Assembly (NCBI RefSeq): GCF_002019735.1
Contig: NZ_KV917378.1
Coordinates: 2,134,869-2,198,868, forward strand
Reading direction: 5' to 3'
DNA length: 64,000 bases
DNA from: Salipaludibacillus agaradhaerens
Lineage (GTDB): Bacteria; Bacillota; Bacilli; Bacillales; Salisediminibacteriaceae
Shown: piece by piece, positions 2,217-35,770 of the stretch
How positions within the stretch are numbered: the first letter of the stretch is position 1
How the letters are laid out: each line of letters starts with the position of its first letter
Notes under the pieces: generated by a model
The model's input: the letters and a program-made list of their open reading frames with translations, nothing else
The model's database searches: none
What the model was told of the DNA's origin: nothing
Translations under genes and position numbers: made by a program

Positions 2217-2312
2217 ATATAAAACGAACCTTCAATTCAGTGGCATTCGTTCTTCCCCTACTGATTGGTCGTTGAGTCACTCTGGATATTAGCGGCGGTT
2301 ATATGTGATAAA
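2217..2312 (+). repeat. Structured repeat family, copy A (short form)
   Basis: Begins ATAAAACGAACCTTCAAT and ends GTTATATGTGATAAA, like the longer copies at 26192, 28316, 28818 and 35633. It keeps the 5' hairpin (CAGTGG ... CCTACTG) but lacks the inner CCCGCC.../...GGCGGG stem. TTAGCG is joined directly to GCGGTTAT. Confidence 0.75.
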
Positions 2313-2317
2313 GGGAA

Positions 2318-2340
2318 TCCGGCCACATCATGTGACCGGA
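2318..2340 (-). terminator. Hairpin downstream of rocD
   Basis: TCCGG(C)CACAT/ATGTG(A)CCGGA inverted repeat, 33 bases past the rocD stop. Only a weak T-rich tract (ATTCCCTTTATC on the minus strand) follows, so termination may be partial and putB could be reached by readthrough. Confidence 0.4.
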
Positions 2341-2372
2341 GAGTACTAGAACAAGGGACATTAGCCTCCCTC

Positions 2373-3566
2373 TTAAGGGGTTAACACTTCACTAATCTGT
2401 TCAATTGCCCAGTCAAGATCTTCTTTTGAAATAACAAGAGGAGGGGCGAAGCGAATAACATTCTCGTGGGTCTCTTTACAGAGTAGCCCCTTTTCTTTTA
2501 GCTTTTCACAATAAGGTCTAGCAGGCTCCGTCAATTCAACTCCTATAAATAATCCTTTTCCTCTTACTTCTTTTATGTGTGGATTAGAAATTGTCTTAAG
2601 CCGTTCCTTGAGATAGTCACCTAGGCGATTGGATTTCTCTACGAGTTTTTCGTCTTCTATCACGTCTAGTGCAGCGATTGAAACAGCACACGCTAATGGA
2701 TTGCCGCCAAACGTTGAACCATGAGAGCCAGGCTCAAACACACCGAGAATATCATCATTCGCTGCAATCACAGAGATAGGCATCACACCGCCCCCGAGAG
2801 CTTTACCAAGGATATATATATCGGGCTCTACTTCTTCCCAATCACATGCAAACATCTTACCTGAACGCGCTAATCCGCATTGAATTTCATCTGCCACGTA
2901 CAACACTTGTTCTTTTTTGCAAATCGTATAAGCTTCCTTTAAGAACCCTTCTGGAGGAATGTTAATTCCCGCCTCTCCTTGAATTGGTTCAAACAAAAAG
3001 GCTGCTGTATTTGGGGTAATAGCGGCTCTTAAGGCGGCGCTATCACCATAAGGAATCACTTTTATACCCGGAAGCATCGGTCCAAAATCTTGTTTATAAG
3101 CATCATTCGATGACAACGAAACAGCTGTCATCGTGCGCCCATGAAAATTATCTTGGCACACGATTATTTCAGCTTTATTTGCTTCCACTCCCTTCACACG
3201 ATAAGCCCAGCGTCGGGCTGTTTTTGCCGCGGTTTCAACAGCCTCTGCTCCTGTATTCATAGGTAATACCATGTTTTTCCCTGTTAATCGAGAAACTTTT
3301 TCATAGAATATTCCGAGCTGATCATTGTGAAACGCTCTCGATGTTAAGGTGATCCGATCTGCTTGTTTTTTTAAGGCCTCGATGATTTTAGGATGTCTAT
3401 GTCCTTGGTTAACAGCAGAATAAGCACTTAGCATATCCATATACCGTCTGCCTTCCGGGTCCTCTACCCAAACACCTTCTGCCTTTGAAATAACGATAGG
3501 CAGCGGGTGATAATTATTTGCTCCATATGCTTCTGTCAGGTGAATAATCTCGGAGGATTTTGTCAT
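2373..3566 (-). CDS. rocD: Ornithine aminotransferase
   Basis: PLP enzyme converting ornithine and 2-oxoglutarate to glutamate-semialdehyde/P5C and glutamate (arginine/ornithine catabolism). The 397-aa product matches B. subtilis RocD closely: [13 protein letters not shown] near the N-terminus, [16 protein letters not shown], the PLP-phosphate loop [16 protein letters not shown], and the Schiff-base lysine in [15 protein letters not shown] chose the ATG at 3566 because AAGGGGAG lies 5 bases upstream and homologs start here; the frame stays open further upstream only because it overlaps rocA. Its start is 14 bases after the rocA stop, so the two are cotranscribed. Confidence 0.95.
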
Positions 3567-3580
3567 CGTTCTCCCCTTTC

Positions 3581-5131
3581 TTAAAACATATCTGAGACTG
3601 TTTTCGGCTGTAAGAAATGAAGTAGATAGTCTGGGCCACCTGCCTTTGAATCGGTTCCAGACATATTGAAACCTCCGAACGGATGATAGCCGACAATAGC
3701 AGCTGTACACCCTCGATTAAAATAGAGATTTCCCACATGAAAATCTTCACGTGCCTGCTCTAGGTGGTCACGATTATTAGAAATGACCGCCCCTGTCAGT
3801 CCATATTCTGTGTTGTTGGCAATCTCTATCAATTCATCAAAATCTTTAGCTTTCGCAAATGCCACTACTGGACCAAATATCTCTTCTTGCATAATTCGGG
3901 CGTCCGGTGCCACATCGGCAAAAACTGTCGGCTTAATAAAATAACCTGTGGTATTATCTCCCTCACCACCAACCATAAGTTTCCCTTCCTGTTTACCAAC
4001 CTCAATATAATTTAGTACTTTTTCAAACGCCGCTTGGTCGTTAACAGGTCCCATGAAGTTAGTGTTGTCTTGATAGACCGGCCCTACCGTCAATTCCTTC
4101 GTGCGATTAACAACTTTCTCAAGCACTGTGTCATAGACTTTTTCATGAATAACAGCACGAGAGCACGCTGAACATTTTTGGCCTGAAAAACCAAATGCCG
4201 AATACACGATTGATTCTGCTGCCAGATCTAGATCTGCATTGTCATCAACGATTATCGTATCTTTTCCGCCCATCTCAGCAATGACACGTTTCATCCAAAT
4301 TTGGCCATCTTGTACTTTTGCCGCCCTTTCAGCAATATGAAGACCTACTTTTTTAGAACCTGTAAAGTTAATAAATCGGGTGCGAGGATGATCAACAAGA
4401 TAATCCCCCATCTCAGCACTACTTCCTGGAATGTAATTAACGACGCCCTTTGGAAGACCTGCTTCCAATAACACTTCCATGAACTTATAGGCAATAACCG
4501 GTGTCGTACTGGCAGGCTTTAATAAAATAGTGTTTCCTGCTACCATTGGCCCCGCAGTGGTTCCAGCCATAATTGCAAAAGCAAAGTTCCAAGGTGAAAT
4601 CGTTACTCCTACACCTAATGGAATGTAAGTGAACTGATTATGTTCACCGTCTCTGGAATTTATCTCTATCCCATCTTTTAAACGTAGGATTTGTCGGGCA
4701 TAATACTCGAGAAAATCAATGGCTTCTGCCGTGTCTGCATCCGCTTCTTTCCACGGTTTTCCGGCTTCATAAGTTAACCATGCAGAAAATTCATGTTTCC
4801 TGCGGCGAATCATAGCAGACGCTTTAAATAAAATGTTCGCTCGTGCTGCCGGGTCCCACTTCTTCCAAGATTTAAAGGCTTCATCAGCAGCCTGCATCGC
4901 TTTTTCAGCCAATTCACGACTACACTTAGAAACGAAACCGACAACTTCTTTTTTGTTAGATGGATTTTCAGAAACTGTTTTATCCTCAGTAAACACTTTC
5001 TCACCATTAATAATAAGGGGATATTCTTGGCCCAATTGACCTTTGACAAAGTCAAGGGCTTCCTGATACGCCTTGCGATTTTCCTCAACTGTAAAATCTG
5101 TAAATGGCTCATGTCTGTAAGGTACTACCAT
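3581..5131 (-). CDS. rocA: 1-pyrroline-5-carboxylate dehydrogenase
   Basis: NAD-dependent oxidation of P5C/glutamate semialdehyde to glutamate, where the RocD and PutB branches meet. The 516-aa length is typical of RocA. Visible: [13 protein letters not shown] at the cofactor site, FTGSKKVG, the catalytic Glu in [14 protein letters not shown], the catalytic Cys in [13 protein letters not shown], and [11 protein letters not shown] chose the ATG at 5131 because AAAGGAGTG sits 9 bases upstream; an ATG at 5158 would put that ribosome site inside the gene. A sigma-54 promoter lies about 55 bases upstream, so expression should depend on RocR. Confidence 0.95.
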
Positions 5132-5184
5132 GATCAAATCCACTCCTTTAAATCTCATAGTTAAAATCCTTCAATGTTATAATG

Positions 5185-5202
5185 TTGCAAAAATTGTGCC
5201 AA
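5185..5202 (-). promoter_or_regulatory. Sigma-54 (-24/-12) promoter of rocA-rocD
   Basis: On the minus strand the sequence reads TTGGCAC-AATTT-TTGCAA, matching the SigL/sigma-54 consensus TGGCAC-N5-TTGCW at every position, with GG and GC at the canonical spacing. Its distance to the rocA ATG and the adjacent RocR-type activator gene support function. Confidence 0.88.
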
Positions 5203-5260
5203 CTTTTAAATCCTGTAACAAAGCCATTGGTTGGAGGTCACACCGCAAACTTATATGGCA

Positions 5261-5302
5261 TGCAAAAAATAAAATATCGCTAACTGCAAAACTATTTTGC
5301 AG
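5261..5302. promoter_or_regulatory. Probable RocR enhancer sites (UAS)
   Basis: CTGCAAAA-CTA-TTTTGCAG (5284-5302) is a perfect 8-bp-arm palindrome, like my recollection of the TGCAAAA/TTTTGCA upstream activating sequences of B. subtilis roc genes. A TGCAAAA half-site starts 24 bases away at 5261. Both lie about 80-100 bp upstream of the sigma-54 promoter and just before rocR, fitting a shared enhancer/autoregulatory position. Confidence 0.65.
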
Positions 5303-5350
5303 GAGGTTTATTTGTCTTTGTAGAATAAAACACTAAAGAGGAGGAATGAC

Positions 5351-6751
5351 ATGATGTTTAAGGAAATCCCTCAGTTACCGGGTGTTTACAGACAACTTCT
5401 CGATGCCATTGATATTGGCATACATGTTATCAACCACGAAGGAAAATCAATTATTTATAATAAAAAAATGTCCGAAATTGAAGACATGAATAAAGAGGAA
5501 GTTTTAAATAAGACTATTATGGATATTTTCTTATTCAATTCTGAGGAAGAAAGTAGGCTGCTACAAGCATTAAGTAATGGGAGCGTGCATCGTAACGCAA
5601 AACAAACCTATTTTAATTTTAAAGGTCAGGAAATTACAACGATCAACGATACCTTTCCTCTTGTTCATAACGACATGAGAATTGGAGCAGTGGAAATTGC
5701 AAAAGACATCACGAAGCTTGAACGCCTTACCCGTGAGACCTCCAGAGAGAAACATGATGCCAAGTTTACATTTGAACAAATTATTGGGGAGTCATCTGCA
5801 ATTAAAGAGGTTGTTCATAACGCACAACGCGCAGCAAGGACGTCATCATCTGTCCTCATCTCTGGCGAAACTGGTACTGGAAAAGAATTATTTGCCCAAA
5901 GCATTCATAATGGTAGCCATAGATCAGCAAAGCCGTTTATTAGTCAAAACTGTGCCGCTCTACCTGATTCCTTAATTGAAGGTATCTTATTCGGGTCTGT
6001 AAAAGGCGCTTTCACTGGTGCTACTGACCATCCTGGTTTATTTGAACAAGCAGATGGCGGGACGTTAATGCTTGACGAAATTAACTCATTGAACGCATCA
6101 TTACAAGCAAAACTACTGCGAGCCATCCAAGAAAAATCCATTAGACGAATAGGTGACACTAAGAATCGAATGATAGATGTTCGAATTATCGCCACAGTGA
6201 ATGAAGACCCTTTGCTCTCTCTTGAAAAGAACCGTCTACGAGAAGATCTATACTATCGTCTAAGCGTCGTATCACTGACAGTACCACCTCTAAGGAAACG
6301 AAAAGAAGACATCTCATTATTAGCCGACCATTTTGTCCAAAAGTACAATCATCGCTTCCAATTACATGTTCCAGGGCTCGCAGATGAAGTTAGCCACTTT
6401 TTTAAACAATACGATTGGCCTGGGAATGTCCGGGAATTAGAACATATGATTGAAGGGGCCATGAATTTAATTGATTACGACGAACCGATTCACACCATCC
6501 ATTTGCCTGTTCACGTGCGCAAAAAATTCCCACTCCCTGCTAATGATATGACAATAGGCGATTCAAACTCACTTAAACAGAAAGGAGTGGAAGCGGCTGT
6601 CAAACCTCTTCATGCTTATATAGAAGAAGTTGAAAAAATGTATCTCGCTAACGTCCTTTCTATCTATAACGGTAACATTAGCCAAGCGGCTGAAAAATTA
6701 GGTATTAAACGTCAAAGTTTACAGTATCGGCGAAGAAAATATAATTTATAG
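5351..6751 (+). CDS. rocR: Sigma-54-dependent activator RocR
   Basis: Enhancer-binding ATPase that opens sigma-54 promoters of arginine/ornithine catabolism in response to ornithine or citrulline. 466 aa: an N-terminal PAS-type sensor (about 10-120), AAA+ domain with Walker A GETGTGKE (172-179), the sigma-54 contact loop GAFTGA (219-224), Walker B GGTLMLDE and an arginine-finger region near RLREDLYYRL, then a Fis-type HTH at the C-terminus (NISQAAEKLGIKRQSLQYRR). GAGGAGG precedes the ATG; a second ATG follows at once. It is divergent from rocA across a region holding the sigma-54 promoter and UAS palindrome. Confidence 0.92.
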   Translation: MMFKEIPQLPGVYRQLLDAIDIGIHVINHEGKSIIYNKKMSEIEDMNKEEVLNKTIMDIFLFNSEEESRLLQALSNGSVHRNAKQTYFNFKGQEITTINDTFPLVHNDMRIGAVEIAKDITKLERLTRETSREKHDAKFTFEQIIGESSAIKEVVHNAQRAARTSSSVLISGETGTGKELFAQSIHNGSHRSAKPFISQNCAALPDSLIEGILFGSVKGAFTGATDHPGLFEQADGGTLMLDEINSLNASLQAKLLRAIQEKSIRRIGDTKNRMIDVRIIATVNEDPLLSLEKNRLREDLYYRLSVVSLTVPPLRKRKEDISLLADHFVQKYNHRFQLHVPGLADEVSHFFKQYDWPGNVRELEHMIEGAMNLIDYDEPIHTIHLPVHVRKKFPLPANDMTIGDSNSLKQKGVEAAVKPLHAYIEEVEKMYLANVLSIYNGNISQAAEKLGIKRQSLQYRRRKYNL

Positions 6752-6951
6752 AACGACATTCAACATACAAATGACATCTGCAAAAAATAATTTATACCTT
6801 GAACTTCTGGTATAGGCGGAGGCCTTCTTGAGGGGGAGCCTAAGGGGCCATTGACGTAAAATCACCCATTCAGGGAAGCAATTGATTTTAAGTTACTTGG
6901 ATATCATCCTTATTGGAAAGCCATCCGTTTCCTCCAGACCCTCTTTAACCT
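6752..6951. other. Intergenic stretch after rocR
   Basis: No open frame with a ribosome site and no recognisable RNA. It holds a G-rich patch (GGCGGAGGCC ... GGGGGAGCCT) and short stem possibilities only. rocR has no obvious terminator of its own unless the hairpin at 6963 works in both directions. Confidence 0.4.
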
Positions 6952-6991
6952 GACATAATAAAGGCTGTTAAGAGGATTCCTCTCAACAGCC
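6952..6991 (-). terminator. Terminator of the sigX-rsiX operon
   Basis: GGCTGTT (6963-6969) pairs with AACAGCC (6985-6991), with inner AGAGG/CCTCT. On the minus strand the stem is followed by TTTATTAT, so it best terminates transcription arriving from rsiX. Confidence 0.6.
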
Positions 6992-7067
6992 AAAGTGGCA
7001 CTTTCTTATAGTAGGTTTCTTTTAATTGTCAGTTTCAAACTATAAGCCATACCATCCATTGATTAAC

Positions 7068-8306
7068 TTAATTTTCTCCCATATCATACGTGATAGTGTC
7101 TCCACTATCTACGTTGATAATTTCCAGTGAATCAAGGGTAAAGGATTTAGCGGTTAGCTTGAGTGCTTCAAAAAACAGGTGAAGTTTTTCTTCTTCTACG
7201 TCTCCATCTTCGATAATACGGTAACCAACTCTAGCTGTATCACCAGGAATCGTTACACTTGTGACTTCAACAGGTGCAGGAATAGCTGATTCATACCAAC
7301 CTTCCTCTTCTTCTGTCGTAGCCATTTTTTCCACCGTTTGTTCAAATGTTAATGGCGTCCCATCTTCTCTCATGACTTCTCCTGCCATTCTAGCGCTTAT
7401 TAAACCTACCTCATTATTTTCTTCAACGAGATAATAACCTCTGTTATGTGTCGTCACATCGAGAGACTGCGCCATTCCTCGGGGACCAAAAATGAGACCA
7501 GGCTCTTCATCAACAAGAAATTCTACTTCATTGTAACCGTATAATGGGACAATTTCTTGAAACATTTCTTCGATAAAAGCATATTCTTGTGAACTTAATG
7601 CTTGGAGGGCTTCTGTATCCGTAAAGTGAAGCTGGACTGTGTCACCACTCGACGTCACATCCTGTAGACTATTTAAGTAGTGACCTGATGTTGTATCGCT
7701 CTCTTTAACTGAAGTAAGCAATGCCTTCTCTCTATTAACCGACTCATCTAGTTCATATTCTTCCACCGTAATATAGTGGTTAGCACTACTTCCCTCTCCA
7801 ACAGAGTAGCTCTTTGCAATATAAGCAACGCTAGCAACCCTTGCCGGTTTAGTCATCACTTGTGCTGGCTCATCATGTTCATTGAGCATTTCGTTATCAT
7901 CATCTTCTATAGATGGTGTTTCAGGGGCTTCTGGAAGTTCTTCCTCGTTGTTATTAACAGCCACCTCGTGAGAGTCAAGATCAGTATCATTTAAATCATT
8001 GTTTTCAACAGGAGCTGTTTCGTTCAAATTTGCCTCTTCTTGATTCATATTATCGGTCGTCAGTTGATTATCACTTGTAAAGAATGGAGGAATAATAAGA
8101 ATAGCTAAAAGTACTGCTGCCGCAGAAGCCATTGCCGGAAAGACCCAGGGCTTCTTTTTCCGCGGTGAAAAGCGTGTGGGCAATTCTTTTTCTGTCCTAC
8201 TCGCTATCGCCTGGAAAAGGTCATCCTTAGTTTGTCTATCTTGGACGGGAGGAAGCTTTGTCAACGTTTTCTCTACATCTTCTTCCGACCACTTTTTGTT
8301 GTTCAT
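7068..8306 (-). CDS. rsiX: Anti-sigma-X factor RsiX
   Basis: Membrane anti-sigma factor that holds SigX inactive. 412 aa: a cytoplasmic N-terminus (KWSEEDVEKTLTKLPPVQDRQTKDDLF) resembling the start of B. subtilis RsiX, one transmembrane helix at about 54-76 after a basic KKK stop, a very acidic Asn/Glu/Asp-rich linker (about 80-150), and an extracellular GerMN-like domain. It is somewhat longer than B. subtilis RsiX because of the linker. Its ATG overlaps the sigX stop by 4 bases (ATGA), indicating translational coupling and roughly equal production with SigX. Confidence 0.85.
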   Translation of the reverse strand: MNNKKWSEEDVEKTLTKLPPVQDRQTKDDLFQAIASRTEKELPTRFSPRKKKPWVFPAMASAAAVLLAILIIPPFFTSDNQLTTDNMNQEEANLNETAPVENNDLNDTDLDSHEVAVNNNEEELPEAPETPSIEDDDNEMLNEHDEPAQVMTKPARVASVAYIAKSYSVGEGSSANHYITVEEYELDESVNREKALLTSVKESDTTSGHYLNSLQDVTSSGDTVQLHFTDTEALQALSSQEYAFIEEMFQEIVPLYGYNEVEFLVDEEPGLIFGPRGMAQSLDVTTHNRGYYLVEENNEVGLISARMAGEVMREDGTPLTFEQTVEKMATTEEEEGWYESAIPAPVEVTSVTIPGDTARVGYRIIEDGDVEEEKLHLFFEALKLTAKSFTLDSLEIINVDSGDTITYDMGEN

Positions 8307-8851
8307 TTACTTACCTCCTTCTCACCCATCGCAGCATCAGCCTCTTCCAAATGTCTTTTCAATGCTTTAATCGCACGGTGTTGAGTCGTTTTCACTTTAC
8401 TTTCAGTCCAACCTAATATATCAGCTGCTTCAGCTATAGAAAGGGATTGAATATAGCGGAGTAAAACGACTTGTTGTTGATCTTGACTACACTTTTCTAG
8501 CATTTTATAAATGTGCTGCACTTCTTCTTTTTGAACAACGATTTCTTCAGGTAAAGGGTCGTTGTCTTCTATTTCAAACTCGCGTTCACTCCATTCGTAC
8601 TCTTTACCTTCTGATTTACGCTTTTTACGGGACTGCTTTCTTATCCAGTCGATAGCCACATGCTTCGCAATGGAGTAAAGCCAAGTCTTCTCACTGCTTT
8701 TCCCTTCAAACGTTTCGTAAGAATTTAAAACTTTTATATAAACCTCTTGCACGAGTTCTTCCGCTGTTTCTCGGTTCCGTACAAGGTAAAAGAGGTATTG
8801 GAAAAGTTGGTGGTGATAGGTTTGATATAACCGCTCAAACTCCTCTCTCAC
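8303..8851 (-). CDS. sigX: ECF sigma factor SigX
   Basis: Alternative sigma factor of the envelope stress/surface-modification type. 182 aa with region 2 (FQYLFYLVRNRETAEELVQEVYIKVL ..., split here as FQYLFYLVRNRETAEELV and QEVYIKVLNSYETFEGKSS) and region 4 (SIAEAADILGWTESKVKTTQHR) in the usual order. TWLYSIAKHVAIDWIRKQ matches B. subtilis SigX almost residue for residue. The start is GTG at 8851, preceded by GGGAGGG. An ECF promoter of SigX type lies directly upstream, consistent with autoregulation. Confidence 0.9.
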   Translation of the reverse strand: MREEFERLYQTYHHQLFQYLFYLVRNRETAEELVQEVYIKVLNSYETFEGKSSEKTWLYSIAKHVAIDWIRKQSRKKRKSEGKEYEWSEREFEIEDNDPLPEEIVVQKEEVQHIYKMLEKCSQDQQQVVLLRYIQSLSIAEAADILGWTESKVKTTQHRAIKALKRHLEEADAAMGEKEVSK

Positions 8852-8878
8852 ATTGTTCCCTCCCTGACTAATATATTG

Positions 8879-8904
8879 GTCGACATTTCGCTCTTTCTGT
8901 TACA
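8879..8904 (-). promoter_or_regulatory. ECF-type promoter of sigX
   Basis: The minus strand reads TGTAAC-N16-CGAC, matching the SigX consensus (TGTAAC ... CGAC). It sits about 28 bases upstream of the GTG start, so a positive feedback loop by SigX is likely. The same spacing recurs at 19361. Confidence 0.8.
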
Positions 8905-8943
8905 TATCAATTTGAGAAAAAAATTTATGAGAGAAGCTGGCAT

Positions 8944-9036
8944 TTACCTTGTGAATGCCCATACCCAGTAAAGTGCCCCTCCTATAAATCCTATTACAAG
9001 TAAAACAAATGCTAATTGCCAATTTTTAAGCTTCAT
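8944..9036 (-). CDS. Small single-helix membrane protein (30 aa)
   Basis: The ATG at 9036 is preceded by AAAGGTGA at good distance. The product starts MKLKNWQLAF, continues as one hydrophobic helix with a GFIGG turn, and ends WVWAFTR. It has a lysine-rich inside end and an aromatic outer edge, as expected for a small membrane peptide. I do not recognise a family. It is upstream of sigX on the same strand but separate from the sigX promoter. Only the ribosome site, start codon and membrane profile support it. Confidence 0.5.
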   Translation of the reverse strand: MKLKNWQLAFVLLVIGFIGGALYWVWAFTR

Positions 9037-9268
9037 TTTGTCACCTTTTCATTGAATAGAGTCTCATCACATTATATAGAAAAATAAAAAGCTTAGCTAT
9101 AACATGCGGGAACATTCTCCATAGAAACCATAATAATAGAGAATTGTCGATAAAAGTCGTGTGAATATTGCTATAAGATAAAATGGACTATTAAACATCC
9201 CACTACTCGTTACTATTAGTGTGGTTAAAATTCTCCTTTATCATTAGTTCTTTGGTGTGAATCACATC
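9037..9268. other. AT-rich intergenic region
   Basis: I see no gene, RNA motif or strong repeat between the small membrane ORF and the ugp terminator. A promoter for the small ORF may lie here, but no box is convincing. Confidence 0.35.
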
Positions 9269-9315
9269 AAAAAACACTTATTTCATCCACTATGCAGATG
9301 AAATAAGTGTTTTTT
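9269..9315 (-). terminator. Terminator of the ugp operon
   Basis: A 19-base perfect inverted repeat (9269-9287 and 9297-9315; arm core CACTTATTTCATC) with a 9-base loop. T-runs flank it on both strands, so it can work in both directions. It lies 25 bases after the ugpB stop. Confidence 0.8.
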
Positions 9316-9339
9316 TACAATAACAGGTGTTATTTACCG

Positions 9340-10719: not shown

Positions 10720-10739
10720 ATCATCAACTCCCAGTATCA

Positions 10740-12517: not shown

Positions 12518-12530
12518 TTATTTCCACCTC

Positions 12531-16916: not shown

Positions 16917-16925
16917 CAGCGAGTT

Positions 16926-21522: not shown

Positions 21523-21571
21523 GAAATAAAGCTAAGCTTCCATTAGTGGGGATTTTACTGCTCCTTAAAGA

Positions 21572-25778: not shown

Positions 25779-25807
25779 CCGTTATGTCCTCTCCTTCATT
25801 ATTAGAC

Positions 25808-25877: not shown

Positions 25878-26004
25878 GTTCATATACCTGTCATATTGCT
25901 ACCTAATGAATACTTCATGCTCTTCCCATCTTCACATATCATCATTCTCCCCCTCCCGAATGAGTCTGGGATAAAATGGATAGATGAAGCAGAACGGTGT
26001 TTAT

Positions 26005-26160: not shown

Positions 26161-26191
26161 ACTAACTAGTTCATCGCTAGTTAGTCATTTT

Positions 26192-26339
26192 ATCATAGAT
26201 AACCGTTGATAAAACTCCCGGCTCAAAATAGAGAGGAGAGCGAACGCTATTTAGGCGGGAGGTCACGCTTATGTCCTGATTCACTCTAAAATCAGTGAGA
26301 GAAGAACAAAAACAGTCATTGATTGAAAGCCGTTTTATA
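26192..26339 (-). repeat. Structured repeat family, copy B (inverted orientation)
   Basis: On the minus strand it reads ATAAAACGGCTTTCAATCAA ... GAATCAGGACATAAGCGTGA ... CCCGCCTAAATAG ... CTCTATTTTGAGCCGGGAG ... GGTTATCTATGATAAAA, matching copies C and D along its length. It ends 12 bases before the small ORF at 26351. Confidence 0.8.
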
Positions 26340-26350
26340 GGAGGGTTAAC

Positions 26351-26470
26351 ATGTCGATTTATGTATTTGCGATTTTAGGATATATTGTGTTATTTTTAAC
26401 AGCCATTGTATTGATAAGATCCCTATTTAGTTATTTTAGAAAAAAATTTACTAGTCGTGATAATAATTAA
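26351..26470 (+). CDS. Small single-helix membrane protein (39 aa)
   Basis: Starts MSIYVFAILGYIVLFLTAI, continues hydrophobic, then a basic tail SYFRKKFTSRDNN. TAGGAGGG sits 6 bases before the ATG, a strong ribosome site, and a clear terminator follows at 26539, so this looks like a real short gene. One transmembrane helix with the positive end inside. Family not recognised. Confidence 0.6.
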   Translation: MSIYVFAILGYIVLFLTAIVLIRSLFSYFRKKFTSRDNN

Positions 26471-26538
26471 GTTCAACATTAATAAAACAAGATAAAAAAT
26501 TAGAAAGCTGTCTTTAAAGAAACACCAAGACTTTTTGG

Positions 26539-26562
26539 ACTGTCCTCAGGGCAGTTTTTTTC
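26539..26562 (+). terminator. Terminator after the 39-aa ORF
   Basis: ACTGTCC-TCA-GGGCAGT followed by TTTTTTTC on the plus strand. Confidence 0.8.
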
Positions 26563-26586
26563 TTAAAAGTAAGATCAAGGCGTTTA

Positions 26587-27201: not shown

Positions 27202-27375
27202 TCTGTTTCCCCTCCCTCCTCATCATTATATGTTAGCCATCGCTATTTTTCACTATAAAGGACGTTTTATGCCATATCGTGCAAAATGGTCGCATATGTA
27301 GGTATGTTATTTTAGGGTTTTGTGAATCAATGTTACACTATATAAGAAAGTTATTTATAAGGGAGATTAACGCTC

Positions 27376-28281: not shown

Positions 28282-28315
28282 TCATGTTTAAGGTGGAAAG
28301 GTCAACATGACCTCT

Positions 28316-28475
28316 GTATAAAACGGACCTTCTATCAGTGGAAGTTTTCGTTCTTTTCCCACTGCTTGGTAGTTGATTAATCAGGACATTAGCATCCGTT
28401 ATCTCCCGCCTGAATAGATTTATCTCTACTCTCTATTTTGAGGCGGGAATTTTACGGACGGTTATCTGTGATAAG
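28316..28475 (+). repeat. Structured repeat family, copy C (full length)
   Basis: Reads TATAAAACGGACCTTCTATC ... TTAATCAGGACATTAGCATC ... CCCGCCTGAATAGA ... TCTATTTTGAGGCGGG ... TTTACGGACGGTTATCTGTGATAA. Stems visible: CAGTGG/CCCACTG, ATCCGT.../ACGGA, and CCCGCCT/AGGCGGG. Confidence 0.85.
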
Positions 28476-28541
28476 CATTTTGCGCTGCCCCTGCTTCGAA
28501 CATACACATCATTTTCTTCAGGCGGCTGACAAGTTTTCCAT

Positions 28542-28570
28542 GTTGAGAGAGAATAGGCTTCTCTCTCAAC
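28542..28570. terminator. Strong hairpin without T-run
   Basis: Perfect 12-bp inverted repeat GTTGAGAGAGAA/TTCTCTCTCAAC with a 5-base loop. No T-tract on either strand. It could terminate or stabilise RNA from the gene at 27376, or be the remains of an element. Confidence 0.35.
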
Positions 28571-28670
28571 TGTCAAGATATATAAACAATATATAATCAT
28601 TTGCAGTTGACCATGACTGACACTTTTTGTCTCAGCCTCACTTTCTTTGACCTAGACACTGTTTCATCAT

Positions 28671-29204
28671 TTACTCCGTATCTTTAAGCAGGTCACTTAC
28701 TGACAATGGCGATATAGTGCCTTGGTGAAAATAAAGTTGCCATATCCCATCAACCTGCTTCCATATAGAACTGCGCCATGTGTTACGATTTCTCGTTTTA
28801 TCTACTATAAAATAAGTTGATAAAACGAACCTTCAATCAGGGGGAGGTTCGTTCTTTTTCCACTGATTGGTAGTGGAGTCAATCAGGACATTAGCGTCCG
28901 TTAGTTCCCGCCTAAATAGAGTTACCTCTCCTGTCTATTTTAAGCCCGGAGGTTTACGGACGCTTATCTGTGATAAAACGACATCGGGTGCTAACGGATA
29001 AAGTTCATACTGATGTAGTGACATCTCCGACAATACAACTCCAGTTTCAAGACACTCTTTTTTATCATACCTATACCCTGAACTCCCTATTTCAAAGAAC
29101 TGGTCTGCCAGAATTGCCTCTAGTTTTTCACGATTATGGCGAACAGCTAGGTTTATGTGGCTTTCCTCTAACTCTTTTAAATGTTCCTTTAACGCCATAT
29201 CCAC
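28671..29204 (-). pseudogene. DUF4440 (NTF2-like) gene interrupted by repeat copy D
   Basis: The first half (GTG at 29204, AAGGTG upstream) encodes VDMALKEHLKELEE ... CLETGVVLSEMSLHQYELYP, a DUF4440/SnoaL-like start. It then runs into repeat copy D, giving a false end. Beyond the repeat, in the same frame, the missing half appears: TYFIVDKTRNRNTWRSSIWK, VDGIWQLYFHQGTIS, stop TAA at 28671-28673. Removing 153 bases (element plus one 10-bp target copy) restores about 127 codons, the usual family length. DUF4440 proteins are small cone-shaped dimers of mixed function. Confidence 0.85.
28818..28980 (+). mobile_element. Structured repeat family, copy D, inserted in the DUF4440 gene
   Basis: Flanked by identical TGATAAAACG (28818-28827 and 28971-28980). 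Interior: AACGAACC/GGTTCGTT and CAATCAG.GG/CC.CTGATTG at the 5' end; AGCGTCCGT/ACGGACGCT enclosing CCCGCCTAAATAGA/TCTATTTTAAGCCCGG. No open frame, so it must depend on proteins supplied elsewhere. MITE-like size and structure. Confidence 0.8.
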
Positions 29205-29251
29205 TTCTGCAACACCTTACTTTCCTTATGTCTCCAGAACCATCTGTTATT

Positions 29252-29707
29252 TTATAATAATTCTTTATTTTTCTTGTAAGAACGTTTTAAAGAAATATAA
29301 CTCGATAAAAACCATACTAAGCTAACACTTATTAATAATCCTAACAATTCAATACCTTCAGTTAGACTTGTAAGTCCATTCATGAAAATAATATATAACG
29401 ATAGGAAAATAACAACAAAACCCATTGTTCTTATGACTATCAATCTGAACGCTTTTCTATACGTCTCTTCTGTTGCAACATCCGTATATTCGATACCTGA
29501 TACTATATATCTTCCACACACGTAAAAGAGGAAGAGTGCAATAGATGCCAATAAGATTACTTCTATATTCACATTAAAATACCTGTTGCCGACAGTCATT
29601 ACGATAAGAAAAAGAAAGAGCATTATGGCGCCTTCTGCGAAAAAATATAACATCTTGAGTTTCTTATATTCATCATTTGGTAATAAGAAAGAGATCCAAG
29701 AGTCCAT
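29252..29707 (-). CDS. Four-helix membrane protein, unknown family
   Basis: 151 aa with about four helices (AEGAIMLFLFLIVMTVG, VILLASIALFLFYVCGRYI, LIVIRTMGFVVIFLSLYIIF, LLGLLISVSLVWFLSSYI) and a lysine-rich C-terminus. I chose the ATG at 29707 (AGAGG about 10 bases upstream); an ATG at 29767 lies inside csaA. It follows csaA on the same strand, but nothing known links the two. It resembles small DUF3278-like integral proteins, not certain. Confidence 0.6.
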   Translation of the reverse strand: MDSWISFLLPNDEYKKLKMLYFFAEGAIMLFLFLIVMTVGNRYFNVNIEVILLASIALFLFYVCGRYIVSGIEYTDVATEETYRKAFRLIVIRTMGFVVIFLSLYIIFMNGLTSLTEGIELLGLLISVSLVWFLSSYISLKRSYKKNKELL

Positions 29708-29732
29708 TAAGCTTCTACCTCTATCCCTCTCT

Positions 29733-30065
29733 TCAACTAATCTTAGTGCCATTAGGAACTTTCCCATCTACATTTAACAAGATAACATCCCCTTTTTCCG
29801 GAATTCCTCCCATGACAAGCACTTCTGATGAAAATCCAGCGATCTTCATTGGTGGAAAGTTAACGACAGCCACTACCTGCCTGCCAATAAGTTCTTTCGG
29901 GCTATATCGTTTTGTAATTTGAGCACTTGATTGTTTCACCCCAAGTTCAGCACCGAAATCAACCTTTAATTTAATAGCAGGGACACGTGCTTCAGGGAAG
30001 GGCTGTGCTTCTATAACTGTTCCAACTCTCATATCTAGCTTTTGAAAATCGTCAATGGTTGCCAT
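29733..30065 (-). CDS. csaA: CsaA, tRNA-binding-domain chaperone
   Basis: 110-aa OB-fold protein with the tRNA-binding domain of the Arc1p/MetRS-beta type, described in B. subtilis as a secretion-related chaperone binding SecA and preproteins. Motifs: KLDMRVGTVIEAQPFPEARVPA, GVKQSSAQITKRYSPKELIG, QVVAVVNFPPMKIAGF, SEVLVMGG. The ATG at 30065 with GAGGTGA upstream matches the homologous start (MATIDDFQKLD). Confidence 0.9.
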   Translation of the reverse strand: MATIDDFQKLDMRVGTVIEAQPFPEARVPAIKLKVDFGAELGVKQSSAQITKRYSPKELIGRQVVAVVNFPPMKIAGFSSEVLVMGGIPEKGDVILLNVDGKVPNGTKIS

Positions 30066-30437
30066 ACCTATCACCTCTATCATTATTTGTGTAAGATTAT
30101 TCTCTCATACAACCAAGCTACACATTAGAAACAACATTTTTTTAGTGTGCTCTATTAATTAATTCTTAAGAGTTGCCTGTTTCCCTTCAAAACCGTGACA
30201 TTTTTCTAAATTTTATACGTTGCTGTCCCGTCTAGGATCAAATTTGATGACACATGTCCGCTCAAATGACATCACTATCCCACAGTCATTTTGCTCTTTT
30301 TCTTGGGTGATATTTCCCAAACCTACATAATAATAATGGTGTTTCACTTGATAAATAAACGGGAAAGTGTAGTTATTATCGCCAGTGTCATTTATCTATT
30401 ATTGGTCTACATAACGGAAGGAGGATCATCCAATTGG
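30066..30437. other. Intergenic region between csaA and the BCCT carrier
   Basis: Contains the divergent promoters, though no box stands out. The carrier frame stays open back to 30291, but the extra 49 residues have no homolog-like character and the best ribosome site (AAGGAGG, 30418-30424) serves the ATG at 30438. Confidence 0.4.
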
Positions 30438-32408
30438 ATGCCATCTACTATGGAAAAATACGAATATAAAACAAAAAAACCAAACATCGTCTTTTACGTT
30501 TCAGCACCACTCGTAGCATTATTTGTGCTGTGGGGGGCAATAGGACCTGGCTCATTAGCAAGCATATCAGAAAGTGCCCTTATATTTACATTGGATAATT
30601 TCGGCTGGTTTTACATGTTATCTACCGCTTTTTTTATCGCCTTTGTTTTATTTTTGGCCATTAGCCCTTTTGGCAAGTTAAAGCTTGGCAAACAGCACGA
30701 AAAACCCGAATATAAATTTTTCACATGGCTCGGCATGCTATTTTCTGCAGGGATTGGCGTCGGTTTCGTCTTCTGGGGTGTCGCAGAACCCGTGTTGTAT
30801 TATTTTGACCCACACCCTGACTATGTTAATGCTTCAGACGGTGTGAGAGCTGCTGCTGGCTTACGCTATGGCGTCTTTCATTGGGCGCTCCATCCATGGG
30901 CAATCTTTTCTCTCGTCGCTTTAACGTTGGCATATGTGCAATTTCGTAAGGACCAGCCTGCGTTAATTAGCTCAGCGTTTCATCCTATTTTAGGAGATAA
31001 AGCTTACGGAACTTTCGGTAAAGGGATCGACACGTTAGCTGTCCTTGCTACCTCAACTGGTGTGGCAACCACCTTCGGGTTGAGTGCCCTCCAAATATCC
31101 GGTGGCCTCTCTTATCTTATTGAAGGGATACATAACACTGCCACAACCCAATTTACGATTATTGCAATCGTAACGGTTTTATTTATATTTTCTGCTGCTA
31201 CAGGTGTAAATAAAGGAATCAAAATTTTAAGTACGATTAACTTAAGTATCGCTGCTTTACTGTTACTTTTTGTGATTATCGTAGGACCCACATTATTTAT
31301 TGCACAAAATTTCGTAACGACGCTAGGTGGCTACATAGCAAATGTCACGCAAATGAGCCTAGATCTTGACCCTTTCGGTGATGGGGAATGGTTAGGAAAC
31401 AACACGATTTTCTTTTGGGCTTGGCATATTTCATGGGCACCTTTTATGGGAATCTTTATCGCTCGCATCTCACGAGGACGTACAATTCGTGAATTTGTAG
31501 CTGGTGTGTTAATTGTTCCGTCTGTTTTAGCAGCCATTTGGTTCACATCTTTCGGAGGTTCTGCACTTGATATGATTTTAGCAGGTAATGAGCAGATCGG
31601 GATCCTTGTAATGGAGGAAGTGGAAGTTGCCTTGTTCACCACTTTAGGCCATTTACCACTTAGCTTCATAACGAGTCTTCTCGCTGTCTTATTGATCATT
31701 ATCTTTTTTATTACCTCCGCAGACTCTGCTTCTTATGTTCTTGGAGCTATGACCAGTTCCGGTAGCCTCAACCCGAAATTGAGTATAAAAATTATTTGGG
31801 GGTTTCTTATCGCTGGTACGGCCAGTGTTTTATTAATAAGTGGCGGACTAGAAGGTTTACAAACAGCCTCCATTGTCGCGGCTCTACCATTTGCTTTTAT
31901 CATGCTCGTGATGATGTTCTCTCTCCTAATTATGATGGGAAAAGATTTAAGAATGGATAAGCTGCGAAAATCAAAGCGCGAACGAAGGAAAGTGAAAGAA
32001 GAAGTGTACAGTGGTATGAAGGATACGATTTATGATGATTTCAAAGAAGAGGCTTATGAAGAAATTAAAGAGGACATGTATGAGCAAATGAAAGACGACG
32101 TGTATGATGACTTTAAAGACGATGCGAGTAGCACACTAAAAACTAAAGTGTATGAACAAGTTAAAGAAGACGTCTATGAAGATTTTAAAGAGGAAGCTTA
32201 TGAGGAGATTAAAGAGGAAGTCTACGAACAAGTCAAAGACGATGTTTACAACGAGATTAAACAAGAAGTTTATGAACAATTTAAAGATAAAATATATGAA
32301 GATTTACGAGAAGACACAGGCGATCAGTTACCGAGTAATGAAAATGACCAGAAAAAAGGTGAAGACGTCATTCGTAAAAAGAATAAAAGAACAGATAACG
32401 ACCATTAA
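30438..32408 (+). CDS. BCCT-family betaine/choline carrier with octapeptide-repeat tail
   Basis: Na+-coupled uptake of glycine betaine or a related compatible solute (OpuD/BetP type). 656 aa with 12 helices in residues about 15-510. The glycine segment GIGVGFVFWGVAEP (sodium/substrate site), HWALHPWAIFSLVALTLAY and FFWAWHISWAPFMGIFIARISRGRTIREF with the betaine-cage tryptophans are intact. After the last helix comes a basic stretch (KLRKSKRERRK), then 14 tandem octapeptides (residues 520-631) and a short Lys/Asp tail. Tails of BetP-like carriers act in osmosensing, so this one may do so too (inference). AAGGAGG lies 13 bases before the ATG. Confidence 0.88.
   Translation: MPSTMEKYEYKTKKPNIVFYVSAPLVALFVLWGAIGPGSLASISESALIFTLDNFGWFYMLSTAFFIAFVLFLAISPFGKLKLGKQHEKPEYKFFTWLGMLFSAGIGVGFVFWGVAEPVLYYFDPHPDYVNASDGVRAAAGLRYGVFHWALHPWAIFSLVALTLAYVQFRKDQPALISSAFHPILGDKAYGTFGKGIDTLAVLATSTGVATTFGLSALQISGGLSYLIEGIHNTATTQFTIIAIVTVLFIFSAATGVNKGIKILSTINLSIAALLLLFVIIVGPTLFIAQNFVTTLGGYIANVTQMSLDLDPFGDGEWLGNNTIFFWAWHISWAPFMGIFIARISRGRTIREFVAGVLIVPSVLAAIWFTSFGGSALDMILAGNEQIGILVMEEVEVALFTTLGHLPLSFITSLLAVLLIIIFFITSADSASYVLGAMTSSGSLNPKLSIKIIWGFLIAGTASVLLISGGLEGLQTASIVAALPFAFIMLVMMFSLLIMMGKDLRMDKLRKSKRERRKVKEEVYSGMKDTIYDDFKEEAYEEIKEDMYEQMKDDVYDDFKDDASSTLKTKVYEQVKEDVYEDFKEEAYEEIKEEVYEQVKDDVYNEIKQEVYEQFKDKIYEDLREDTGDQLPSNENDQKKGEDVIRKKNKRTDNDH
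31995..32330 (+). repeat. 14 tandem 24-bp units coding octapeptides
   Basis: Consensus octad K-[ED]-[ED]-[VAMI]-Y-[ED]-x-[FIMVL]. Examples: KEEAYEEI (twice), KDDVYDDF, KEDVYEDF, KEEVYEQV, KDDVYNEI. The sixth (KDDASSTL) and fourteenth (REDTGDQL) units have lost the Tyr. Third-base differences between units show the array is old and kept at protein level. Confidence 0.9.
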
Positions 32409-32423
32409 TCTTACTATTCTCTC

Positions 32424-32455
32424 CAGCCAGAGGACTGATCTAGTCTCTCTGGCTG
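32424..32455. terminator. Convergent-gene hairpin
   Basis: CAGCCAGAG...CTCTGGCTG imperfect stem between the BCCT gene and crcB. No long T-run. Confidence 0.45.
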
Positions 32456-32481
32456 TAGACATTCATATCCGTTAACTCTTT

Positions 32482-32862
32482 TTAACCTGCCGTAATCAGC
32501 ATGGCGAGAACGAAACACATAATACTTCCTATAATAGAGCTACCAACATATAAAGCACAATCCCGCCATTTCTTTTTTCTGATAAGAGTAGAGGTTTCTA
32601 TACTAAACGTTGAGAACGTTGTAAACGCACCAAAAAAACCAACACCAATAAATAAATACCGAAGATCATCATAAACCATTGAGGGCACTTCCCGATAGAC
32701 CCATCCGAAAAACAAACCGAGTCCGAATGCACCAAGAATATTAACGATAAGCATCGCGGTAGGAATACGTCTCTCCTTCGTCCTAGCTTTTATTAAATTT
32801 CCAAGTAAATATCTCGAAACCGCCCCTAGGCCTCCCCCTACTGCAACTAATAAAACCGTCAT
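32482..32862 (-). CDS. crcB: Fluoride channel subunit FluC (CrcB), second copy
   Basis: 126-aa four-helix membrane protein. FluC/CrcB proteins form dual-topology dimers that export F-. The family core is clear: GGGLGAVSRYLLG near the N-terminus, NILGAFGLGLFFGW (conserved Asn) and GFFGAFTTFSTFS (phenylalanine box, Na+-site turn). It overlaps the upstream copy by 4 bases. Gram-positive bacteria often carry such pairs, which work as heterodimers. Confidence 0.92.
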   Translation of the reverse strand: MTVLLVAVGGGLGAVSRYLLGNLIKARTKERRIPTAMLIVNILGAFGLGLFFGWVYREVPSMVYDDLRYLFIGVGFFGAFTTFSTFSIETSTLIRKKKWRDCALYVGSSIIGSIMCFVLAMLITAG

Positions 32863-33266
32863 AATAAATCACCTGCTTTTTGCCGTCTTGATGCTACCTC
32901 TTCACCTGCTTTTAACCCGGCTAACGCAAGGATGACACCTCCGAAAAGGGAGATGATTATGTAAACAGCAGCTGCCATAAGAGAGCGTTCACCGCCTATA
33001 AATACAGTATCAGCCGCTAGTGTTGACATGGTCGTAAATCCGCCACAAAAACCGACACCTATCCCCTCTTTCCAAGCACCCGGGAGCACTTTTACAGCTC
33101 CCCATCCTGTGAGAGCGCCAAGTAAGAAGCTTCCTAGTAAATTTTCTAAAATAGTTCCTAATGGGAATAGCAAGTTTATCGTTTGTAAATTAATTGCATA
33201 ACGCAGTAGAGTACCCAGAACCCCCCCAATAAAAATAGATAGTAGAATCGCTAACTGCTGTTTCAT
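32859..33266 (-). CDS. crcB: Fluoride channel subunit FluC (CrcB), first copy
   Basis: 135 aa. IFIGGVLGTLLRYAIN, NLLGSFLLGALTGW and GFCGGFTTMSTLAAD correspond to the three FluC core motifs. I chose the ATG at 33266 with AAGGTGA upstream. First gene of the pair. I looked for a fluoride riboswitch in the 300 bases upstream and did not find its conserved GGCGAUG.../...GAUGGC pattern. Confidence 0.9.
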   Translation of the reverse strand: MKQQLAILLSIFIGGVLGTLLRYAINLQTINLLFPLGTILENLLGSFLLGALTGWGAVKVLPGAWKEGIGVGFCGGFTTMSTLAADTVFIGGERSLMAAAVYIIISLFGGVILALAGLKAGEEVASRRQKAGDLL

Positions 33267-33578
33267 TAAAATCACCTTTATCTTAAACATCATCAATTGC
33301 TTTATCACTATTATAAGTCATCCCTATGTATTATAAAAGTTTCGCCCTATTACCGGCCTATGCTTATAGACTTATTTATGTTTTAATAGTTTTCATCACT
33401 TCGAAAATAAGGTACAATGTAAGTATAAATATTCTATAAATTTACAATCTTTTAGATATTAATAATGGATTTATTATTATTTTATGTGAACTTGTTATTC
33501 ACTAAAAAGAATAACGCGTGGCGGAAATTTTACATAAAATAACTTCACTCACTATTAAATAGAGGGGCGGTGATTGCT
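33267..33578. other. Divergent intergenic region, possible promoter of the FapA-like gene
   Basis: TTTTCA (33390-33395), 17 bases, TACAAT (33413-33418) could drive the FapA-like gene with a leader of about 160 bases. That leader holds the hairpin GTTATTC-N8-GAATAAC (33494-33515), which has no T-run. No riboswitch recognised. Confidence 0.4.
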
Positions 33579-35627
33579 TTGAAAGATGCTCTTATGTTTC
33601 AAGGCAAAAGTGTTGAATCAGCTATAGAAAAGGCGCTAAATGAACTACAATTGGAGAAAGACGATGTTTATATTGAAATTATTGAGGAAAGCTCTCAGAA
33701 GCTATTTGGCTTAGCTAGATCCAAAGCAAAGATAATGGTTTCTAAAATAGATAAACCAGAAGTTGAAAGCGTAACCACCGATTGGGAAGAGTGGCTTATA
33801 AATGAGATGAAAGAAAACCCTTCTTTTGATTTGCGACAATCTGCCTTACCCACTGACATTATCAACACGTGGGAAGGCAAGGCGTGGATTAAAGACAGTA
33901 ATTTGTATTACCAAGATTCTGAGACAAAAAAGCCTGTGGTTGAATTAACAGATGGCATCACTTTAATGAAAAATGGTGAAAAGGTTGAAAATCAGACGAC
34001 CCTTACTAAAGGTGATCAACTGGAAATTGATTTTGAAACGACTATCGTGGAAACCGAATGGTCCATTGAAGTAAATGAAGAGAAACAACAGGCCATTCTC
34101 AGTGTAACGCCTGGCTATTATCTTGTTGCTTATTTAGAAGACCATCCCCCATCAGAGAAAATAGTCTTAAAGCCAAACCACCGTAAACAACCTAACAATC
34201 AATTAACTGTGGAAGATGTCTATCAACAACTTGAAACAATGGGCATAAATACAGGTATAAACAAGGCAATGATCCAAGAAGCTTGTATCACCTTAAAAAC
34301 GGAAACATTTATTATAGCTGAAGGTGTACTTCCTAAGCATGGTGATGATGGTAAAGTACACTTCGAAATAGACCTAAAAGAACGTACAAAAGCGTTTGCC
34401 GAAAAGCATGACGGGACAATCGATTTCCGCGAATCCATTTATATCCCCTCTATTGAAAAAGGAGAGCTATTAGGAACAGTAGAAGATCCGACTCCAGGTG
34501 AAGATGGCGTAAGTGTATTCGGTGAAACATTAAAGGCGGAAGCTGGGGACCCTATTCTTCTAAAACCCGGACAAGGGGTTACATTTTTAGAAGAAGAAAA
34601 TAAAATCATCGCTGTAGAAAATGGCCGACCTAAAGTGGATCGAACAGGTCAAATGCTCAAAGTATATATTCTACCAAAACTCCAGCACCGTGGAGACTTA
34701 AACTTAGAGGATGGTAACATTCATTTCGTAGGTGATGTTGAAATTTCAGGCCACGTTAATGAACATATGGTTGTAAATGCTGAGGGATCAGCATGGATTC
34801 ACAAAAGTGTTCTTCACAGCTCCGTTCAAACACGAAATAAGATTACCGTTGGAGCAAATGCCATCAAAAGCTCGTTAGTCGCCGGTAAAAACAGTTTAGT
34901 ATTCGAAGAGATGACTAAAAAATTAGCTCCGTTTATGGAAGTACTTACGCCATTTACGCAAGTGGTTAAACAGCTTGTCCAGACTGAAAACTTCCAACAA
35001 ACTTATGCCATTAACCAAAGTCTTGGACCTGTGATCAAACTGCTGACTGAATCCAAATTTAAAACGCTTATTCCGCTTGCAAAGGATTTATTAAATACCA
35101 TTAATACGAAACAAAATGTGTTAGATAAGAGCTGGCAAAGTTTTGCTGTTTCCTTATACAAAGGTATCCTCATCTATCACCACAACCAATTTAAAACGAT
35201 AAAGGATTTAGAAAAGTTTGTGCATGCCGGGGCTAAATTATTAGAAGTATGTCAAAGCCCACTTCAAAATCACTCTTCTATCGTTGTTCAATACGCCATG
35301 AACAGTGAACTTCATTGTAATGGAGATATTCATATTCAAGGTAAAGGTTGTGTTCATACAATCATTCACTCAGATGGAAATGTTCAAATTGATGGACAGA
35401 TGATTGGGGGAAAACTATTCGCTAAAGAAGGTGTGGAGATCGGTGTGGCAGGATCTGCTGGTGGTGTTAAAACATTGATTGAAGTTCCTTACGATCAAAC
35501 AATTAAAATAAAAGAAGTTCACCCTGATGTCACCCTAAAAATAGGTGATCGGCAATATGTCTTTACTAAGAGCCATTCAATGGTTCGAGCAAGGCTCGAT
35601 GCTGATGACGTTGTGACCTTATATTAG
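33579..35627 (+). CDS. FapA (DUF342) family protein with Jag-N domain
   Basis: 682 aa from TTG at 33579 (GAGGGGCGGTGA upstream; GTG 33570 and ATG 33594 are alternatives). The N-terminus FQGKSVESAIEKALNELQLEKDDV ... LFGLARSKAKI is a Jag_N domain, shared with the cell-shape RNA-binding protein KhpB/Jag. The rest is the FapA/DUF342 region: YIPSIEKGELLGTVEDPTPGEDG, GETLKA, GQGVTFLEEE and right-handed beta-helix strands (GDVEISGHVNEHMVV, GDIHIQGKGCVHTII, EGVEIGVAGSAGG). Members are described as polymerising or cell-division/flagellum-localisation factors; the exact role is unknown. Confidence 0.82.
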   Translation: MKDALMFQGKSVESAIEKALNELQLEKDDVYIEIIEESSQKLFGLARSKAKIMVSKIDKPEVESVTTDWEEWLINEMKENPSFDLRQSALPTDIINTWEGKAWIKDSNLYYQDSETKKPVVELTDGITLMKNGEKVENQTTLTKGDQLEIDFETTIVETEWSIEVNEEKQQAILSVTPGYYLVAYLEDHPPSEKIVLKPNHRKQPNNQLTVEDVYQQLETMGINTGINKAMIQEACITLKTETFIIAEGVLPKHGDDGKVHFEIDLKERTKAFAEKHDGTIDFRESIYIPSIEKGELLGTVEDPTPGEDGVSVFGETLKAEAGDPILLKPGQGVTFLEEENKIIAVENGRPKVDRTGQMLKVYILPKLQHRGDLNLEDGNIHFVGDVEISGHVNEHMVVNAEGSAWIHKSVLHSSVQTRNKITVGANAIKSSLVAGKNSLVFEEMTKKLAPFMEVLTPFTQVVKQLVQTENFQQTYAINQSLGPVIKLLTESKFKTLIPLAKDLLNTINTKQNVLDKSWQSFAVSLYKGILIYHHNQFKTIKDLEKFVHAGAKLLEVCQSPLQNHSSIVVQYAMNSELHCNGDIHIQGKGCVHTIIHSDGNVQIDGQMIGGKLFAKEGVEIGVAGSAGGVKTLIEVPYDQTIKIKEVHPDVTLKIGDRQYVFTKSHSMVRARLDADDVVTLY

Positions 35628-35632
35628 CAGGC

Positions 35633-35770
35633 TCAAACGAACCTTCAATCAGTGGGCGTTTCGCCTTCTCCCACTGATTGGTCGTTGAGTCAATCAGGAC
35701 TTTACCGACTGTTAGCCTCGTCTAAATAAAATTACCCTTCCTCTCTATGTTGAGCCGCAAGCTTTATACA
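35633..35770 (+). repeat. Structured repeat family, copy E (3' end degraded)
   Basis: Starts CTCAAACGAACCTTCAATC 5 bases after the FapA-like stop. It has the best 5' hairpin of the family: CAATCAGTGGG (35646-35656) pairs perfectly with CCCACTGATTG (35670-35680). The 3' part (GTCTAAATAAA ... TCTATGTTGAGCCGCAAG) is diverged and the end is missing. Confidence 0.75.

Follow-up and report, generated by a model that had tools for sequence, protein, structure and literature searches.

A gene-less structured repeat of the Bacillales, inserted 3' of TTTAT and oriented with replication

What is the structured repeat that lies scattered over a 64,000-nucleotide stretch of the Salipaludibacillus agaradhaerens genome, and how did it come to be there? 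This stretch, referred to below as the window, covers G000:C1:2134869-2198868, where G000 is the genome of the window, a single contig of 4.32 Mb. The initial annotation described five copies with shared ends and an ordered set of stems, and took them for an unrecognised family that looked like a non-autonomous mobile element and also a folded RNA or cruciform. All five were recovered within a few bases by direct extraction, alignment and profile search, and in a separate profile search they gave E-values of 3.9e-18 to 9.9e-49, which excludes chance. The comparisons presented here identify the repeat as a non-autonomous mobile element, the insertion point of which lies 3' of TTTAT. Its mobility is seen in an empty site and in an identical copy at different loci in two related species, and covariation strongly supports a selected fold. 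The element may or may not also act as a folded RNA; the replication-strand bias points to folded single-stranded DNA, with mixed evidence from wobble pairs.

The insertion can be followed at a site upstream of gnd in the genus of a second genome, G314, for which 15 of the 31 genomes were aligned. Three of these are occupied (G314, G408 and G425) and 12 are empty, seven of the empty sites still carrying TTTAT and five not. The empty sequence ...GGATTATTTTATTGG becomes, in the occupied state, ...GGATTATTTTAT|element...CACTTTAT|TGG. At the join, the sole difference between G314 and the empty G334 and G403 is an element placed straight after TTTTAT and ending CACTTTAT; identity to G314 across the 1.4-kb query is 94-95% for G334, G403, G405 and G410. 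The G314 copy at gnd is identical, over 158 of 158 bases, to a G334 copy at another locus, and the G314 site is empty in G334. The elements of G408 and G425 occupy the same site, which has therefore either been used more than once or undergone precise loss. Insertion is directly 3' of TTTAT, and the far end of the element is also TTTAT, so a target duplication would look alike.

A second comparison involves the window itself. Copy 2 (26189-26338, minus strand; profile E 9.6e-32) is full length, has TTTAT on either side and is followed directly by AGGAGGG, a Shine-Dalgarno-like run. At the orthologous place in the close relative G007 the copy is missing, GTTAGTCTATTCTT being followed by AGGAGGG, and the site reads ATTCTT; a short distance upstream, G007 carries a partial copy that is distinct from copy 2 and oppositely oriented. 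This comparison fits the insertion seen upstream of gnd. Arrays of the element at matching places in G000 and G007 contain 2 versus 5 units and 6 versus 5 units, between flanks that are 94-98% identical. At three further places, near 6.8, 9.1 and 30.2 kb of the window, G007 contains a copy, full or partial, that the window lacks; the alignments there are poor and the joins unplaceable, and these places are not counted as empty.

The unit is about 154 bases long and runs from ATAAA to ATAAA at most ends. Read in the direction of the initial annotation, a copy opens with ATAAAACGAACC TTCAATCAGTGGG and ends GGTTATCTGTGATAAA, and the flanks examined beyond ATAAA have no common sequence. Terminal inverted repeats are absent, the consensus left end ATAAAGTGAAACTTC showing no match to the reverse-complemented right end TTTATCCCGCATTAA, and TTTAT is a direct repeat. 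Within the genus some units form head-to-tail arrays with a period of 150-157 bases, the longest of up to nine units (L072), in which neighbours share one ATAAA or ATATA. In L072, L077, L078, L080, L082, L085 and L086, the junctions between units often read ATATA and the two outer ends ATAAA. At least 56 blastn matches to copy 4 were obtained in G000 (best 40 of 380 candidates). The covariance-model search proposed in the initial annotation returned at least 150, all at E <= 2.8e-20 (2001 first-look candidates), and the true copy number is probably above 150. This model, R1, was built from 27 copies on an RNAalifold consensus with only 16 pairs, which missed most of the fold, and it detects mainly through sequence. 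In G007, five 20-kb pieces hold 16 matches, full and partial, at E < 1e-6.

How widely is the element distributed? Three of the eight genomes of the genus (G000, G006 and G007) have at least 150 matches each, and the covariance model found none in G001-G005. Across the Bacillales at least 59 of 397 genomes and at least 36 of 135 genera were matched at E <= 1e-8, the matches listed being full length; these are lower bounds, as the best seven candidates per genome were scored under strict filters. Four loci carry the element in Amphibacillus jilinensis. A plasmid of Pseudalkalibacillus hwajinpoensis matches over the whole query, and plasmids of Cytobacillus oceanisediminis and Peribacillus asahii match partially, over 38-54% of it. 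Plasmids and phages gave no match to the G000 form of the DNA, and the forms of its relatives, used as queries, gave few plasmid matches, no phage match and no match in a B. cereus plasmid. Three sequence patterns retrieved 1, 0 and 0 contigs from IMG/VR. The viral contig L346 (IMGVR_UViG_2926488731_000002) contains the left end that is conserved in the superfamily. Part of the repeat (47%) is matched by a plasmid record under the name Klebsiella grimontii (L357; CP079755.1, 221561-221630); this record may be mislabelled or chimeric, or the match may be a stray. No description of the wider Bacillales family turned up in the literature searched.

The fold has two hairpins, the first of which is briefly extended at its base, and the second of which is built from two stems, one outer and one inner. 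This order is the one originally described, and the A-rich termini are left unpaired. It was assessed in an alignment of 42 copies from 36 genomes (A5; five rows from G000, three from G390 and one each from 34 others), which holds 44 pairs in three helices with 93.1% of 1818 cells paired. The alignment contains 155 double-change cells, compared with 48.5 in shuffles (none of 500 reached 155) and with 10-36 when the structure was slid, a control in which the structure has an advantage, since it was read from the consensus of A5 itself. At column pair 80-150, for example, the 42 rows have G-C 23 times, C-G 11, U-A 7 and A-U once. Compensatory change has maintained the pairing in these 42 copies, and the fold of the element is strongly supported. 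In a set of 160 copies drawn almost wholly from the genus, 87.1% of cells are paired versus 86.8% in shuffles (9 of 200 reach it), with 23 double-change cells versus 13.8 (2 of 200 reach it). So little pair preservation in resident copies is as expected if selection acts on the moving lineage only, and we read this as a fold that is selected in the spreading lineage and decays in resident copies. Wobble pairs, read on the ATAAA strand, number 73 G-T cells versus 50 A-C across genera; in resident copies a hand count at 15 G-C pairs gave 136 A-C versus 96 G-T.

The orientation of the copies is tied to replication. With arcs set from the GC skew of 95 G000 stretches, leaving element orientation unused, the negative-skew arc contains 68 plus and 13 minus copies, and 8 plus and 60 minus lie outside it. 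Orientation agrees with the arcs in 128 of 149 copies; one of the 150 lies between arcs. The strand reading TTTAT...TTTAT lies on the G-rich strand in G000, which by the usual convention would be the lagging-strand template. Could transcription set the orientation? Gene context was recorded for 87 loci, a sample enriched for unusual orientation, and the remaining ratios from it therefore do not describe the population. Where both neighbours are co-directional with replication, 37 elements are antisense and 14 sense to these genes. Where both run against replication it is sense to them in 7 of 7, following replication; with 0 of 7 antisense there, we rejected transcription as the determinant. 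Nor does the supply of targets account for the bias. TTTAT occurs 52 times on the favoured and 57 times on the other strand in the intergenic DNA of the window, 232 versus 195 times in the whole window and 660 versus 551 times in nine 20-kb pieces, element ends being included in the latter two counts, and an unevenness of at most 1.2-fold is too small to explain a 6-fold bias. The strand rule is best explained by insertion into the single-stranded lagging-strand template.

The element also occurs in longer and shorter forms. In four long G000 copies (L044-L047), the linker that joins the two hairpins contains one and the same GC-rich palindromic module, and the gnd-site elements of G408 and G425 (L177, L179) have a similar-looking module in the same linker in the opposite orientation. 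The module, of about 65-70 bases with CGTCCTG plus paired arms, was found in two different genera. A short form lacks the first hairpin, which is mostly lost exactly between two CAATCAG words, a direct repeat. It makes up 14 distinct rows (18 minus the four module copies) among 285 profile matches, in which overlapping loci are counted repeatedly, and these rows include one G000/G007 pair with like flanks and one from Amphibacillus (L033). Examples are L074, L347, L353 and L033, and the form recurs at many sites. It looks like the product of slippage across the hairpin, or else a mobile short form.

We propose, with a probability of roughly 0.6, that the repeat is non-autonomous mobile DNA of a Bacillales-wide, bcr1-like superfamily, the folded strand of which is inserted 3' of TTTAT in the single-stranded lagging-strand template. 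One strand (TTTAT|C...TTTAT) would fold into two adjacent hairpins and enter the template directly 3' of TTTAT. As the element would bring its own TTTAT at its 3' end, an apparent direct repeat would result and a fresh target would be left, on which head-to-tail arrays could grow. Having no gene, it would be moved in trans, presumably by an enzyme that recognises the fold; single-stranded DNA would be the moving form and the TTTAT strand the one that folds. The model builds on the insertion point, established at one locus, on the ends, on the selected fold across genera, on the strand bias and on the different array lengths of related species.

Several observations weigh against this proposal. 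A double-strand enzyme making a 5-base target duplication would give the same ends, and the ATATA junctions inside several arrays, with ATAAA outside, are not fully explained by a simple carried end. The G-T excess across genera leans towards a fold of the ATAAA strand, not of the proposed TTTAT strand. In G000, 21 of 149 copies have the other orientation, and the short form, present at many sites, suggests that the element can do without one of its hairpins or loses it readily. The array gaps inspected by eye contained nothing element-like or transposase-like that could represent an autonomous long copy. No moving enzyme was identified among the Y1_Tnp, RVT_1 and tyrosine recombinase candidates, and Y1_Tnp (PF01797) was not found in G000, G007, G314 and G334, four of the 16 carriers tested.

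What else might move such an element? It is possible that the mover is a resident Y1 (HUH) transposase and the repeat a derivative of classical IS200/IS605 or REP/RAYT elements, since a position 3' of a short, invariant sequence, hairpins at the ends and a lagging-strand-template bias are all of IS200/IS605 type, and Y1 genes were found in 12 of the 16 carriers, G006 and G008 among them. The four carriers that lack PF01797, however, include G314 and G334, which share an identical copy at different loci, and G001-G005 have Y1 genes without the element; we consider this explanation unlikely. The ends and the empty site would fit equally well with insertion of a double-stranded circle, or with a transposon resembling a miniature inverted-repeat transposable element (MITE) that duplicates the five bases TTTAT, the strand bias then being secondary. 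The outer ATAAA around the ATATA junctions does look duplicated, and bcr1-3 are termed MITE-like in the accessible text of PMC3446304. An element of this type would be expected to have the terminal inverted repeats that are absent here, the 86% bias would need a cause other than the nearly even TTTAT supply, and orientation is set by replication and not by genes, all of which makes a double-stranded route rather improbable. Less credible by far is retro-movement of a structured RNA, in which a 3' AUAAA would pair with the target TTTAT as primer and be copied in place. The ATAAA strand as RNA would indeed end in AUAAA, complementary to TTTAT, and both the conserved fold and the G-T excess on this strand across genera agree with it, but the resident copies show the reverse excess of A-C, and RVT_1 (PF00078) was not found in G000, G007, G314 or G334. 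Y1_Tnp and RVT_1 were rejected as resident movers for these four carriers only.

An integron-like route, in which a tyrosine recombinase consisting of the catalytic domain only would act in trans, with the folded strand as its substrate in the way that attC is for IntI, also seems quite unlikely to us as a general explanation. A comparison of the tyrosine recombinases of nine genomes revealed one small protein, lacking an N-terminal domain, that G000, G006, G007, G314 and G334 have in common. In G000 it is a solitary protein of about 180 amino acids (L244:3119-3658 = G000:C1:2356618-2357157), which matches PF00589 and PHROG 216 (integrase) and has a best NCBIfam score far below the cut-off. 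Within the genus it is present in all three element-bearing genomes, among like neighbours, and the five element-free members, G001-G005, have only weaker matches. The orthologs of G314 and G334 are 53-54% identical, that of G334 standing before genes read by eye as ruvA and ruvB. Among the 397 genomes, however, orthologs, defined by a threshold of our own (best E <= 1e-55, with the best eight candidates per genome scored), are present in 24 of 59 element genomes versus 110 of 338 others (one-sided p = 0.14). Nine element carriers (G048, G310, G319, G197, G235, G258, G210, G063 and G102) have no match at E <= 1e-25. The sampled copies nevertheless look young in G048 (up to 99.4% identical) and in G363 (median 98.1%), which has only weaker relatives of the recombinase (best 180.8 bits). 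As an order-wide mover the recombinase is unsupported; as a lead it is confined to the genus. Close relatives of this small protein occur in 134 of the 397 Bacillales genomes at E <= 1e-55. For the insertion of a folded strand into the lagging-strand template, a further possibility, to which we give less than even odds, is that these gene-less transposons are written in at TTTAT, throughout the Bacillales, by an enzyme outside the Y1 and reverse transcriptase families; it might belong to the replication or repair machinery of the host, or be a recombinase of a kind not yet recognised.

The copies in the window illustrate several states of the element. The shared ends and stems reported for all five are present in copies 2-4, which are full length, and in part in the other two. 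Copy 1 (2219-2312, plus strand; profile E 1.4e-17) keeps both ends intact (ATAAAACGAACC ... GTGATAAA) and has lost most of the second hairpin; a proline dehydrogenase gene lies on one side of it and a class-III aminotransferase gene on the other. Copy 2, described above, has an orientation contrary to that usual for this arm. Copy 3 (28318-28475, plus strand; profile E 1.4e-46) has ATAAG as its right end, and copy 4 (28820-28977, plus strand; profile E 4.5e-49) is followed by ACG, so that its right end repeats its left end (ATAAAACG). In copy 5 (35635-35767, plus strand; profile E 8.1e-30) the left end has decayed (TCAAACG) and the right terminus is gone. Matched by coordinates, G007 has copies facing window copies 1, 3 and 4, and a partial copy (model 38-159) at the position of copy 5. 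A further, weak match at 21526-21565 does not rise above noise (profile E 0.013). The initial annotation saw no open reading frame in any copy. None of the copies falls within a credible gene; the right part of copy 4 is overlapped by mechanical open reading frames of 89 and 95 amino acids, and none of at least 100 amino acids runs through a copy at the 87 gene-context loci. Elsewhere in the window, 52769-52855 on the minus strand matches the small RNA BsrC (Rfam RF01410, 70.4 bits).

Why does the family matter? In the accessible parts of the literature cited here, bcr1-like structured repeats have long been called mobile without a known mover. A family similar to bcr1 is now seen order-wide, with a defined TTTAT target, a selected fold, a replication-strand rule and carriers without obvious enzymes. 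The question of the mover becomes directly testable between close species (G314 and G334, G000 and G007), and the alignment could yield a covariance model that annotates many intergenic repeats.

Among known systems, integron attC sites act as a folded single strand with a conserved shape. The element resembles them in this and in its head-to-tail arrays, and differs in having no gene cassette, in occupying many scattered places compared with one platform, and in that no tracking recombinase was found. It is like IS200/IS605 elements in its position directly 3' of an invariant short sequence, where a target duplication would look the same, in having a hairpin at each end and in its bias to the presumed lagging-strand template. 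It differs in that four of the 16 carriers tested have no Y1 gene, the two hairpins are dissimilar and the far end is the target sequence. IS608 and ISDra2 are described as targeting the lagging-strand template and as having subterminal structures, and REP/RAYT repeats as intergenic palindromes thought to move as single strands, in the accessible text of PMC6006769. Like REP/RAYT, the element is an intergenic palindromic repeat, but it is much longer, has two different hairpins, and no RAYT-type (PF01797) gene was found in G000. No match to the element was found in Rfam at the gathering score in the window, and five loci searched at a lax threshold gave only microRNA matches (E about 0.9). To this extent the family was rightly called unrecognised; its anatomy, however, matches B. 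cereus bcr1 as published, so it is probably a relative of a known family. As far as the available portions of the papers go, bcr1 is mostly chromosomal, has a high copy number and a conserved secondary structure, and its TTTAT is tied to mobility (PMC6542083, PMC2267715, PMC3446304); lengths of 147 and 167 bases are given (PMC2267715), and the first BCR element was reported to occur in the B. cereus group alone, again with TTTAT linked to mobility (PMC6542083). Judged by these published features, bcr1 is the closest described family, and sequence homology may be expected from a comparison of descriptions. The units here are similar in length to bcr1 (BCR group A) and likewise have TTTAT at both ends, and in contrast to the published confinement of bcr1 to the B. 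cereus group, the present family extends over at least 36 of the 135 genera sampled.

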